Assembly: GCF_004087835.1 (NCBI RefSeq)
Contig: NZ_CP035119.1
Location: 992,001-1,056,000, forward strand
Direction: 5' to 3'
Length of the DNA stretch: 64,000 nucleotides
Source of the DNA: Halorussus pelagicus
Lineage (GTDB): Archaea > Halobacteriota > Halobacteria > Halobacteriales > Haladaptataceae
In this document: piece by piece, positions 55,008 to 61,900 of the stretch
Layout: the number at the start of each line of letters is the position of its first letter
Numbering within the stretch: the first letter of the stretch is position 1
Made by a program: the position numbers and the translations under genes
The notes under the pieces: model-generated
What the model was told of the DNA's origin: nothing
Database searches by the model: none
What the model saw: the letters and a program-made list of their open reading frames with translations, nothing else

Positions 55008-55754
55008 ATGTCCGATAATAGCAACGTCGGTCGGCGCAAGTTCCTGACAACCTCCGGAGTCGCTCTCGCAGGTGGGGTCACGCTCTCCTCGATGACTTCC
55101 ACGGCGAAAGCTGAGGAGAGTTTTGACCTGAACAACGACTTCGAGAAAATCCAGACGTACGTTGGTGGCAGTACCAAGGACGGCATGTACGTCGACGTGG
55201 ACTACGACCTGTATCGTCCCTACTCAGACACTGGACTCGACCGTGATGGAGTCCGGGTGGGACGTGCCGTTATCGAGATCGGCGCAGAAGGTCCGTCACA
55301 CAACTACGCCAAAATCAAGATGGACGGGTACAACGACGCCACTCTGTTAGAGGGCGATAACGGAAAAGTGGCAATGGGTCCCGAGAGTACCATCGGTAGC
55401 TCGACGTACACGCTTGGATTCTCCGCGACAAGCGGCGGAAGTATCAGTGTTGGAACCGATACGTCGGTCAGTGTCGAAGCCGCAAGCACTGTGTCCCGCT
55501 CGGAGTCGAGCACTGAGAGCAACCTCGACATCAACAACTACACCGAGTTGGGCAACGAACTGTTCAAGAACGAGTACGACTTCAACGACGGCCTGCGGGA
55601 CGAGTTCGTGTCTATCGACGCGACCGCCGCCTTCAACTCTGACGGAGTGGCCGAGTGGGACGACTGTATCGACTTCACATGGGAGGTCGATACGACGGAG
55701 TCAACCGTGAACGATACGATCACGTACTCGCACGTCGAGGGCGACCTCTCCTAA
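55008..55754 (+). CDS. Tat-exported acidic protein of unknown function
   Basis: The 248-residue protein has a Tat signal (GRRKFLTTSGVALAGG, about 8-35, ending SMTSTAKAEE). A beta-rich acidic and Ser/Thr-rich domain follows. It contains one Cys only (near the end, EWDDCIDF). The upstream region is very AT-rich (about 54900-55005), with a TATA-like TTTAAAAT near 54976-54983. No family is recognised. It may be an exported surface or accessory protein like the two Cys-rich preproteins, but lacks their Cys tail. Confidence 0.6.
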   Translation: MSDNSNVGRRKFLTTSGVALAGGVTLSSMTSTAKAEESFDLNNDFEKIQTYVGGSTKDGMYVDVDYDLYRPYSDTGLDRDGVRVGRAVIEIGAEGPSHNYAKIKMDGYNDATLLEGDNGKVAMGPESTIGSSTYTLGFSATSGGSISVGTDTSVSVEAASTVSRSESSTESNLDINNYTELGNELFKNEYDFNDGLRDEFVSIDATAAFNSDGVAEWDDCIDFTWEVDTTESTVNDTITYSHVEGDLS

Positions 55755-57752: not shown

Positions 57753-59144
57753 TCAGTGGTCGTGAGAGTGCCCGCCGTCCGCGCTCGCGTCACCGGACCC
57801 CGAGATGTCGCCACCGGCCACCAGCGCGTCGTGGTCGCCCTCGATCATGTCGAGGTCCTTGAGGTTGTCGCGCTCCTCGAAGTCACGGACGGCCGCCGTG
57901 AAGTCCTCCTGGGTGAGCGCGGTCCGCTCCTCGGTCAGCGCGTCCAGCACCGCCTCGCGCAGGACCATCCGGAGGTCGCTCCCGGTCAGGCCCTCGGTCT
58001 CCTCGGCGAGTTCGTCGGGGTTGAAATCCACGATGTCCATCGGCCGGGTGATTAGTCGCAGGATGTCCGAGCGCATCCCTCGGTCGGGTTTCGGGAAGTT
58101 GACAATCTCGTCGAAGCGCCGCCACGCCGCGGCGTCGAGTTGGTCGGGGTGGTTCGTCGCGCCGATGAGCAACACGTCGTCCTGAATCAGGCTGATATCG
58201 TCGATGGACTTCAAGAGGGTGTTGACCGCCCGCTTGATGGCGGCGTGTTCGTCGCTCGCGCGGGTCTTGGCGACGAAGTCGAACTCGTCCATAAAGAGGA
58301 TACAGGGCGAGAGTCGCTTGGCTACCTCGAACACCTTCTCGACGTTCTTGGCAGTCTCGCCGAGATACTGGCTGGTGATCATCGAGAGTTTGACCTCCAC
58401 GAACGGGAGGTCCAAGTCGTAGGCCAGCGCCCGAGCGGTCGAGGTCTTGCCGGTCCCCGGCGGGCCGACGAACAGGAGTTTCCCGATTTCGCGCAGTCCG
58501 ATTTGGGCCAGATACTCCCGATGCTCGATGGCCTTCACGATTTTGTGAATCTCGGCCTCTTGGTCCTCGGTCAGCACGAGATCGTCGAGCGTGGTCTCTA
58601 TCTCCTCGGGCGCGCGGATGTCCACGAGGTCCAGCATTTCCTCTTCTTCCTCGTCTGCGAAGTATTGGGTGAGCAGGCCGTCTATCCACGCGCGGTCGGC
58701 CTGCACGGGTCGGTTGGCCTCGCGGGCCGCCTCGTAGTCGGCTTCCTCGACCTCCTCGGCGAAGGCGTACGCCAGCACGGGATTGTGGAGGACTCGCTCC
58801 TCGCCGCGCTCAAGGAACCACTCCTCGGCCATCTCGCGCTGGGTCAGTTCGAGCGCGCCGGAGAACTCGTCGCGGTCGCTGAACATGAGTTCCGAAATCG
58901 CGCTCCACGGGTTCTCGACCCCCGTCGCTCGCCGAGCGGTGTCGATGGTCGCCCGAATCGGGCGCTCGATGCCCAGCGGTGAGTCGTCGCTCCCCGGCCG
59001 GTCCGGACCGTCGTCGGTGGTCCCGTCGGGCCAGAACACCTGCCGGTAGCGCGGGGGAAGGTCGTTCTCGTCTAACTCTCGATTGTCGTTGTAGAGGCTC
59101 GCGGTGAGCAGAAACTCGACGACATCCAGTGCCGCGTCGCTCAT
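57753..59144 (-). CDS. AAA family ATPase (CDC48-like) with haloarchaeal N-terminal domain
   Basis: The 463-residue protein has an N-terminal helical domain (about 1-205), then one AAA module. Walker A is GPPGTGKT (about 235-242), Walker B is ILFMDEFD, and the second region of homology has ATNHPDQLDAAAWRRFDE. The tail is glycine- and histidine-rich (GGHSHDH). It should remodel or move proteins; substrates are unknown. The start ATG 59144 is preferred to an upstream TTG. Confidence 0.8.
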   Translation of the reverse strand: MSDAALDVVEFLLTASLYNDNRELDENDLPPRYRQVFWPDGTTDDGPDRPGSDDSPLGIERPIRATIDTARRATGVENPWSAISELMFSDRDEFSGALELTQREMAEEWFLERGEERVLHNPVLAYAFAEEVEEADYEAAREANRPVQADRAWIDGLLTQYFADEEEEEMLDLVDIRAPEEIETTLDDLVLTEDQEAEIHKIVKAIEHREYLAQIGLREIGKLLFVGPPGTGKTSTARALAYDLDLPFVEVKLSMITSQYLGETAKNVEKVFEVAKRLSPCILFMDEFDFVAKTRASDEHAAIKRAVNTLLKSIDDISLIQDDVLLIGATNHPDQLDAAAWRRFDEIVNFPKPDRGMRSDILRLITRPMDIVDFNPDELAEETEGLTGSDLRMVLREAVLDALTEERTALTQEDFTAAVRDFEERDNLKDLDMIEGDHDALVAGGDISGSGDASADGGHSHDH

Positions 59145-59355
59145 TCCCCGGAGTTTTGACGCCAAAGGTGCTTAAGCGCGTCGAAGGCGTCGTCGGTCCG
59201 GGCCGCCCCGCACGGAGGAAATAACCGGAGCGCGTCAGGTGCGTCACGTCCGTAGACCGACTGTCCGTGCGAGAGCGGCCATCCCGGTCAAGGTCGCCCG
59301 AAACAAATCGAGGGCCTACTACCGAGACACATTCGAATAAATTATTGAGAAATAA

Positions 59356-59363
59356 ATTTAAGT
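59356..59363 (+). promoter_or_regulatory. TATA box for the 12-Cys preprotein gene
   Basis: ATTTAAGT is centred 28 bp before ATG 59388, within AT-rich DNA. A leaderless transcript is expected. Confidence 0.6.
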
Positions 59364-59387
59364 AGTTTTCCTACAGATAAGAAGTGT

Positions 59388-60035
59388 ATGTCGGAAAACA
59401 ACGATAACGGACGAATGAGTCGGCGAACAGTTCTGAAAGGTATCGGCGCTGGAGCGGCGATTGGAATGTCCGGTCTCGGGTCGGCGAGTGCGACCACTGG
59501 GGAAACCAACGACGTGGAGCGCTCCATCGAGATGCGACGCGCCGCCGAGACGTTCGCAACTGACGACGCCATCCAACAGGCGCTGGCAGGCTACGGCGAG
59601 TCGATCAAAGCGCAACTCGAAGCGGAGGGTATCTCGACGGACCTCGACGCCGCGGACTTCGACGAAGTGCGGTCGTTCCCCGATGAGGAAGACGGCGTGG
59701 CGACCGCCCACATCGTCGCCGAACGCGAGGACGCCGACCGCGAAATTGAGGTCCACGTCCTCCCGCAGGCCGACCGCTCGTTCGCCGTCGAGAAGACCGA
59801 CTCAGGCAACCGCCACTTCGAGGACGGCGACGTCCAACCGATGATAGACTGTAGCACAAACACCTACTGTGACGGCTACTGTCAGTGTATGGCACCGACT
59901 CCGGACTGCAGCAAGAACTGTCACGCCGGGTTTGAAATCGAAGAGCGGTGCTGTCTGTACGCGGACGGAAGCTACGACTGCGAAACCCTCAATCAAGACT
60001 GTACGGATAGCTGTCCCGGAACTGACTGCGCCTGA
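59388..60035 (+). CDS. Tat-exported preprotein with 12-Cys C-terminus (halocin-like candidate)
   Basis: The 215-residue protein begins with a Tat signal (MSRRTVLKGIGAGAAIGMSG, ending SASATTG). A Cys-free acidic middle (about 38-150) follows, then a C-terminal part with 12 cysteines in 60 residues: 155, 161, 165, 167, 174, 178, 188, 189, 198, 205, 209, 214. The layout (Tat signal, Cys-free propart, Cys-rich peptide) matches the halocin C8 precursor plan, though not the sequence of that halocin. It may be processed to a disulfide-bonded peptide. It has its own promoter. Confidence 0.65.
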   Translation: MSENNDNGRMSRRTVLKGIGAGAAIGMSGLGSASATTGETNDVERSIEMRRAAETFATDDAIQQALAGYGESIKAQLEAEGISTDLDAADFDEVRSFPDEEDGVATAHIVAEREDADREIEVHVLPQADRSFAVEKTDSGNRHFEDGDVQPMIDCSTNTYCDGYCQCMAPTPDCSKNCHAGFEIEERCCLYADGSYDCETLNQDCTDSCPGTDCA

Positions 60036-60091
60036 ATCGGCCGTTTCGGCGTCGAGACGGTCCGGACCGTCCCCAATTCTTCGAGTCGAAA

Positions 60092-61900
60092 TTACGAGTC
60101 CTCTCTCGGAGTGTCCTCGTCCACGTAGACGACGACCGTACTGATGGTACATCCGCTGTCGTGAAGATATCGCTGGACTTCGTGGCGCTCGTAGCCGTCC
60201 ATGTGCTGGTCGATGTCGCTGGCGCTGTCGTAGCTTTCCGAACAGGTGGCCGCCGCGCCGAGCGTGATGACGACCGGCGGCTTGTCGTCCATGTCGGCGA
60301 TTATCTCCTCGCGGTTCGTGCTGTCGTGTTCCGCGCCGAAGGTTTCGAGGTACCACGCGAAGGGTAGTCGGGCGAACCATCCAGACCCGCGTGGGGTGGG
60401 CGGAACGTCGTGGGATGACTCGTCGGCCGAGTGGAACTTGTCGCCGTAGTACGTCACGTCGATACCCTCGTTGGTCTCTGTCACCTCCCGAATCTCGCCG
60501 AGCAACGGTTTCATCTCGCTCGAAGACTGAGCGTACTGGACGAGTTCGTTGTCGTCGCTCTGGGCGTCGAGGTACGAGGTGCCGACCGCAGTCGCACCGA
60601 CCTGTGCGGTCACCAGAAGCAGTACCAACGCGGCCGCCGTCGCCGAAACCGCGTCGCCGTCGGTCAGGCTATCGACGCCGAGTCGGGCGACGAGCGCGAG
60701 ACCGACGGCGGCCGGAATCACCAGCGGGACGATGATGTGGATGACCTCCCACGGGAAGGGGTTGTCCACGATGACGGGGTAGCCGAGGAGGCTAGCGAAT
60801 CCCCAGTAGGCCGCGAACGACACCACGTCGTTTGGGCGCTCGCCGACGTAGCGGTCCACGACGAACCCGAGGATAGCGAACGCGAGCAGAGCGATAGCCC
60901 CCGCCTCCAGAACCGGCCAGAGCGCCTTCAGCGCGCCGAGGTACGACTCGGAATTGCCCTCGCCCCACTTCCCCAAGAAGTCGTTCCACGAGCCGAGGGT
61001 CGCGTGTTCGATGACCGCCGGGAGCAGGGTCGGGTTCCCGAGCGCCTCGTAGAGACCCGGTACGTCGCTGTCCACGAACTTGCTGGGGTGTTCGGCGATA
61101 CGGTCGGTGTTGCGTGGCGCGTAGAAGAACACGACGATGGCGAAGAACTCGAAGACGGCGAGCGTGAGGTGGGACCACCAGTCTAAGAGTCCGCGCGCGG
61201 TCGCTCTCAGTCGGTCGCCGACGGCCGACAGCAGGCCGCGCTCGCCAGCGCGCTCGGTGAACAGGCGGTGGTCCCAGAGCAGGGCCACGGCTCCGAGCCA
61301 GCAGACCGGATACACCAGCGCGTTCTCCTTGGTCGTGAACGCCAGTGCGAACGCGGCGGTTCCGGCGTAGAGGAAGACCGGCCGCCGGTGGTCGTACGCC
61401 CGGACGAAGAAGCCGAACGCGGCGAGCATGAACCCCGCCAGCAGGAGGTCGTTGCGGTAGAACCGCGAGTAGTAGAGCAGAATTGGGTTGAACGCCAGCA
61501 GGAGCGCCAGCGCGACCGTTTCGGAGTCCCGCAGGCGCTGGCGGAACAGGAGCGCGGTGAGGGGGAGCAGACCCCCGAGTAGCGCGACGATGAACCGCAT
61601 CGTGAAGTCCGAGGCTCCGAACAGACTGAACAGGTGGCCGTCCACGATGGTCAGGAACGGTCCGTGGACAATGGGCCGATACTCGTAGGCGCCGTTTTCC
61701 ATGAAGCGGTAGGCCCAGTAGGCGACGCGGGCCTCGTCCTGATGGGCGACGCGCGTCCCGAGTTCCACGAAGCGCGCGAGGAGCGCGACGGCCGCGATTG
61801 CGACGACGACGAGTTGGGTCCGGGAGGCGTAACCGGTCAGCGTCTCGCGGGCATCAGCGGTCGAGACGGCGGTGTCGGAGGTTTCGGTTTGCGATGCCAT
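60092..61900 (-). CDS. Agl23-like (TIGR03663) flippase-associated membrane protein
   Basis: The 602-residue protein has about ten membrane helices and the GT39/PMT-like start RFVELGTRVAHQDEARVAYW, with the HDE metal-like motif in the first outer loop. This TIGR03663 family is called flippase activity-associated protein Agl23 in haloarchaea and is linked to lipid-linked glycan assembly. The C-terminal soluble domain (about 450-602) faces outside. Family membership is likely but rests on memory. Confidence 0.75.
   Translation of the reverse strand: MASQTETSDTAVSTADARETLTGYASRTQLVVVAIAAVALLARFVELGTRVAHQDEARVAYWAYRFMENGAYEYRPIVHGPFLTIVDGHLFSLFGASDFTMRFIVALLGGLLPLTALLFRQRLRDSETVALALLLAFNPILLYYSRFYRNDLLLAGFMLAAFGFFVRAYDHRRPVFLYAGTAAFALAFTTKENALVYPVCWLGAVALLWDHRLFTERAGERGLLSAVGDRLRATARGLLDWWSHLTLAVFEFFAIVVFFYAPRNTDRIAEHPSKFVDSDVPGLYEALGNPTLLPAVIEHATLGSWNDFLGKWGEGNSESYLGALKALWPVLEAGAIALLAFAILGFVVDRYVGERPNDVVSFAAYWGFASLLGYPVIVDNPFPWEVIHIIVPLVIPAAVGLALVARLGVDSLTDGDAVSATAAALVLLLVTAQVGATAVGTSYLDAQSDDNELVQYAQSSSEMKPLLGEIREVTETNEGIDVTYYGDKFHSADESSHDVPPTPRGSGWFARLPFAWYLETFGAEHDSTNREEIIADMDDKPPVVITLGAAATCSESYDSASDIDQHMDGYERHEVQRYLHDSGCTISTVVVYVDEDTPREDS

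Follow-up and report, generated by a model that had tools for sequence, protein, structure and literature searches.

Halocin C8 is made from ProC8, a 283-aa precursor exported by the Tat pathway that gives rise to an immunity part, HalI, and to the 76-aa halocin C8 itself, and an immunity role has been reported for the N-domain of the precursor (PMC11509114). Another secreted haloarchaeal precursor, HmHapP (HFX_0892), depends for its activity on halolysin, a serine protease that works outside the cell; this activity resides in the N-terminal 45 aa, which form two helices, and the main text of that report mentions neither cysteines nor disulfides (PMC12893001). The characterised trans-IDS-like prenyltransferases modify tryptophan, with PalQ requiring a terminal Trp, and these enzymes have in common a Gln located just before the second Asp motif (PMC13290415). 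The window analysed here, a stretch of 64,000 nucleotides from Halorussus pelagicus (contig NZ_CP035119.1, positions 992,001 to 1,056,000), contains at 59388-60035 on the forward strand an ORF for a 215-aa protein, which we refer to as P0001. Like ProC8, P0001 is a single-gene precursor with a Tat signal, in which a long Cys-free N-terminal part precedes a C-terminal Cys-rich peptide. An earlier note on this DNA had pointed to a halocin-C8-like plan, and our analysis showed that this plan is real and is common to a large family of precursors.

Architecture and genomic setting of P0001

The first 35 residues of P0001 (59388..59492, +; SRRTVLK ... SASA) form a predicted twin-arginine signal peptide of a type common to its relatives, in which R12-R13 lie within SRRTVLK and are followed by a hydrophobic stretch and then by ASA at residues 33-35, the likely signal-peptidase site and our predicted cleavage point. 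The corresponding match to the Pfam TAT_signal model is sub-threshold, with 17.1 bits against a cut-off of 22.7. Since the signal region has no lipobox Cys, the product would probably be released in free form rather than anchored. Residues 36-154 (59493..59849, +) make up a Cys-free acidic N-domain that has 31 Asp/Glu, 10 Lys/Arg and 0 Cys between residues 37 and 150 and ends in the linker EDGDVQPMID. The stretch from 151 to 215 holds 12 Cys, at positions 155, 161, 165, 167, 174, 178, 188, 189, 198, 205, 209 and 214, and residues 155-215 (59850..60032, +) constitute the Cys-rich tail, the presumed disulfide-bonded mature peptide on the strength of its conserved Cys, their even number and the pattern of selection. 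This tail is acidic (net -9) and hydrophilic, and Trp is absent from it, including from the C-terminal position. The layout described in the earlier note, namely a Tat signal, a Cys-free acidic part and 12 Cys at 155-214, was confirmed on the ORF, and it is not a product of chance, since the same layout recurs in 74 family members and the number of tail Cys is even in 73 of them. The GC3 of the ORF is 0.73. Its start region is AT-rich, and a TATA-like element, TTTAAGTA, was read from the sequence at 59357..59364 (+), ~28 bp upstream of the ATG; together these features are consistent with a leaderless haloarchaeal transcript, of which TTTAAGTA is the probable promoter. AlphaFold models obtained in two jobs of two sequences each reached pLDDT values of 45.6 and 44.1 and were unusable; in these low-confidence models the N-domain of P0001 appeared as two helices and about four strands.

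The P0001 gene is carried by an accessory insertion (59145..60094) of 950 bp, at a site that measures 78-204 bp in 16 other Halorussus genomes, where the P0001 gene is missing and the flanking pair is adjacent. One flank encodes an AAA ATPase-type protein (57753..59165, -) that is 88-97% identical across the genus and has a conserved start at ~59144. The other encodes a PMT-type membrane glycosyltransferase (60092..61900, -) recognised by Pfam PMT_2 and PMT, whose best matches are 67-83% identical in the 16 other Halorussus genomes, with a weaker partial match in an incomplete genome. Both are conserved flanks and not parts of the system. Since the site is empty in 16 congeners, the P0001 gene is an accessory gain and, to judge from this comparison, a recent one made by one Halorussus. 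A few kb upstream of P0001, at 55008-55754 (+) of the window, lies a gene for a 248-aa Tat-signal protein that has one Cys and no Pfam match.

The same genome carries five members of the P0001 family, that is, P0001 and four more. A divergent member with a 10-Cys tail (L076, 2135-2842; G000:C1:1057206-1057838) is located ~1.2 kb past the end of the window and 5 kb from P0001, and another paralog (L079, 4521-5189; G000:C1:1846550-1847179) has 22 tail Cys in ~57 residues, the densest tail found. In addition, the genome contains three halocin-C8-like genes that match TIGR04449 above cut-off (L080, L081 and L082, on G000:C1 near 417137, 2303422 and 1557201).

A haloarchaeal family with Cys-rich tails

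Searches of Pfam, NCBIfam, PHROGs and PADLOC with P0001 and the relatives tested returned nothing beyond the Tat signal and weak matches attributable to chance, and comparison of P0001, two family profiles and the tail alone with PDB sequences gave nothing convincing. The earlier note had been able to name no known family, and this holds across these libraries. RPAP3 came up in a phmmer search with P0001 (E = 0.003) but was absent from the profile searches and was therefore dropped. Searches of plasmid and phage collections gave no relatives, and a short-peptide-pattern search of GTDB contigs and viral contigs led to one locus, L123 of Halorussus aquaticus. Among 99 related genomes, a single-sequence search found relatives with E values down to 4.6e-16. 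A profile search of 391 haloarchaeal genomes then gave matches at E <= 1e-5 in at least 88 genomes, the weak ones on the Tat signal alone, and at 1e-10 or better in at least 38 genomes, both counts being lower bounds as few candidates were scored per genome. With a signal-free profile searched over the whole phylum, the matches were confined to one order, that of P0001; the signal-free model A7 matched P0001 with E = 1.6e-25, P0001 being itself among the 72 rows of the model. A profile of this kind recovers members despite very low sequence identity. From these matches 74 full-length members, P0001 included, and one tailless member were extracted, with the gene boundaries of the relatives set by a simple rule. 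Up to five copies per genome, dispersed, occur in Haloarchaea. At one locus (L010, 1388-1977) the Tat signal and the N-domain lie in different frames; this copy is apparently frameshifted and adjoins near-identical intact relatives.

All 74 members follow the plan of Tat signal, N-domain and Cys-rich tail, with tails that are very dissimilar and whose median length is 51 residues. The N-domain is Cys-free in 72/74 members, P0001 having 0 Cys. Tail Cys numbers range from 6 to 22 (12 in P0001) and are even in 73/74 members, the only odd tail being that of L062, with 7 Cys, whose N-domain carries one more Cys. By a cruder count the number was even in 72/75 (binomial p = 2e-18, a value that treats related sequences as though they were independent). 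Along the N-domain tree the Cys number shifts many times and remains even. The even number points to disulfides, and the family tails are probably disulfide-bonded. The even-Cys rule also opens the formation of disulfides during Tat export in haloarchaea to a direct test. P0001 has a single clear ortholog, L058, which comes from a different taxonomic family, is 45% identical across both parts and retains all 12 Cys.

Ortholog pairs showed purifying selection on the tail, which is often better conserved than the N-domain, as in L021/L122 (81% identity in the tail vs 54% in the N-domain) and L022/L052 (75% vs 47%). Among tandem or close paralogs the tail is the most divergent part, with 36% identity vs 60% for the N-domain in the L094 pair and 38% vs 59% in the L075 pair. 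The dN/dS estimates are rough, synonymous sites being saturated in many pairs. The family is a large one, probably of fast-diversifying secreted peptides, and has no name in the libraries searched; with dozens of members and as many as five in a single genome, it amounts to many testable secreted peptides. No general partner was found among the genes neighbouring family members, and no separate immunity or export gene was conserved beside them. Genes similar to secD/secF and tatC adjoin some members (L083, L084, L090 and L110, L112, L122), an adjacency that probably reflects position rather than function.

A subset of nine members from six genomes adjoins a ~290-aa protein with a DDxxD motif (L092, L099, L100, L114, L157, L158, L159; also L140-L145, L151). 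This protein matches prenyl diphosphate synthases by profile only (E = 1e-6), with no Pfam domain above cut-off. Trp is found in the last two residues of 9/9 enzyme-linked members vs 4/65 others (Fisher p = 6e-9), and the nine fall in about four places of an N-domain tree whose deep nodes lack a support test. The Gln and Asp of FEQFLLDGEQY are invariant in four aligned enzymes. The enzyme looks like an archaeal tryptophan prenyltransferase and the adjoining precursor like its peptide substrate, and the pattern suggests that the tail of the enzyme-linked subset is prenylated. A dedicated enzyme matched to a C-terminal Trp would mean that, for this Trp-ending subset at any rate, the product is probably the tail. 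At L146 (632-1375 and 1495-2358, both -) a copy of the enzyme adjoins a different Tat precursor, which has few Cys and ends in NNSWI. The enzyme model gave no match in the genome of P0001.

Proposed processing of P0001 and alternative readings

P0001 is very probably an exported precursor with the disulfide-rich tail as its product. In the mechanism that we propose, the preprotein would be exported by Tat, as predicted from its signal, and the signal would be cut off after about residue 35. The N-domain, which has no Cys, would act as a pro-domain that aids folding of the tail and holds it in an inactive state or attached to the producer, and the tail would fold with about six disulfides. Cleavage by an extracellular protease of the halolysin type, in the region of the linker (residues 145-154), would then set free a mini-protein of about 61-70 residues, compact and hydrophilic, which may act on competing haloarchaea. 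We put a rough probability of 0.45-0.5 on P0001 being a halocin-like prepropeptide of a separate family, antagonism of haloarchaea included. What puts antagonism ahead of the other readings is a plan resembling that of halocins, together with multiple paralogs that diverge, a patchy occurrence as an accessory gene and the halocin-like genes in the genome. Counted against it were the lack of a conserved immunity or export neighbour, the lack of a terminal Trp or a prenyltransferase neighbour in P0001, an acidic hydrophilic tail unlike classic membrane-active peptides, and an N-domain in which homology of the HalI type is undetectable. The earlier note had proposed a new halocin or a secreted disulfide-bonded effector; the effector is the better supported of these, and the halocin is a function that we infer. 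Candidate archaeal conflict families were reportedly proposed by Makarova et al. in 2019 (mBio).

The released disulfide-rich tail might instead be a pheromone that kin perceive, and not a weapon against rivals. Pherotypes, too, would be expected to have diverse tails and to occur sporadically, and the Trp-ending subset beside an isoprenyl-synthase-like protein has the arrangement of ComQ/ComX and PalQ (PMC13290415). We nevertheless regard this as unlikely, since neither a receptor gene nor one for a histidine kinase was found repeatedly near family members, up to five differing precursors are dispersed in one genome, and the terminal Trp is absent from P0001. About equal weight is given to a role outside conflict, as a protease inhibitor, adhesin or surface component, which disulfide-rich extracellular mini-proteins often are. 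A hydrophilic, acidic tail that does not look membrane-active would suit such a role, but the tail diverges fastest in tandem paralogs, the copies are many and the distribution is patchy, all of which would be uncommon in a structural component. Still less probable is a metallothionein-like metal binder that would be loaded in the cytoplasm and exported by Tat in the folded state. Tat does carry folded proteins, and the tails are very rich in Cys, with CC, CxC and CxxC pairs; metal binding is less easily dismissed for L079, with its 22 Cys in ~57 residues, than for other members. However, the Tat route is commonplace in haloarchaea, where many ordinary proteins use it, and metal binding does not require an even Cys number, yet 73/74 tails have one. 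Moreover, no Pfam metal-binding domain match was found for the tail, and the domain and PDB searches returned no clear metal-binding or structural match of the C-terminus, the kind of match that the earlier note had regarded as telling against its proposal.

It is very improbable that P0001 belongs, as a divergent member, to the halocin C8 family itself, even though the gene plan is the same. The true halocin C8 gene is present in our dataset (L026), and with the signal included the family profile touches the N-terminal part of the halocin C8 precursor (E = 7.5e-7). This match was gone once the signal had been removed, and the N-domain homology that it implied was rejected; the signal-free profile comparison of the N-domains gave a probability of 1% and a score of 16.9 vs 13.2 for the reversed control, and a very remote homology to the HalI part is possible. 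TIGR04449 matched neither P0001 at E values up to 10 nor any of 21 family members at E values up to 1. The Cys pattern is likewise unrelated to that of halocin C8, as the earlier note had said. With a tail that is hydrophilic and acidic and an N-domain for which no homology could be detected, P0001 is, on sequence grounds, not a halocin C8 variant or a member of that family. A resemblance is seen in the pre-tail linker, where a motif of the form [DG][VIF][ST]T[QE] is enriched among members of the P0001 family and also among halocin-C8-like precursors. The form [DEGNSQ][VILF][ST][TVPIS][QE] precedes the tail in 14/74 family members (shuffle mean 1.3, maximum 4) and in 5/15 halocin-C8-like precursors (shuffle mean 0.4, maximum 2). 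The motif was picked after viewing the sequences and serves as a lead only; it perhaps reflects a common maturation protease.

Comparison with halocin C8, HmHapP, ComX/ComQ and PalQ

P0001 differs from halocin C8 in the nature of its tail: the hydropathy of the non-Cys tail residues is -1.28 vs +0.69 for halocin C8, and it has 12 tail Cys where halocin C8 is a hydrophobic peptide with 10. The likeness to HmHapP lies in protease-dependent activation, as proposed here for P0001, and is one of description. The active part of HmHapP is N-terminal, whereas the presumed product of P0001 is the C-terminal tail, and HmHapP was for this reason set aside as a model. P0001 also stands apart from ComQX and PalQ, having neither a Trp in the tail nor the enzyme as a neighbour. 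The enzyme-linked subset, by comparison, resembles ComX/ComQ and PalQ in combining a C-terminal Trp with an adjacent isoprenyl-synthase-like enzyme that has DDxxD and a conserved Gln (PMC13290415), and, unlike those systems, its precursors are Tat-exported, Cys-rich and archaeal. If true, this link to a prenyltransferase would extend peptide tryptophan prenylation to Archaea. As a tentative picture of the whole, the family may be a haloarchaeal conotoxin-like arsenal of Tat prepropeptides, in which one subset would be prenylated at the C-terminal Trp as an archaeal counterpart of ComQX/PalQ, and P0001 would be an unprenylated, recent gain.
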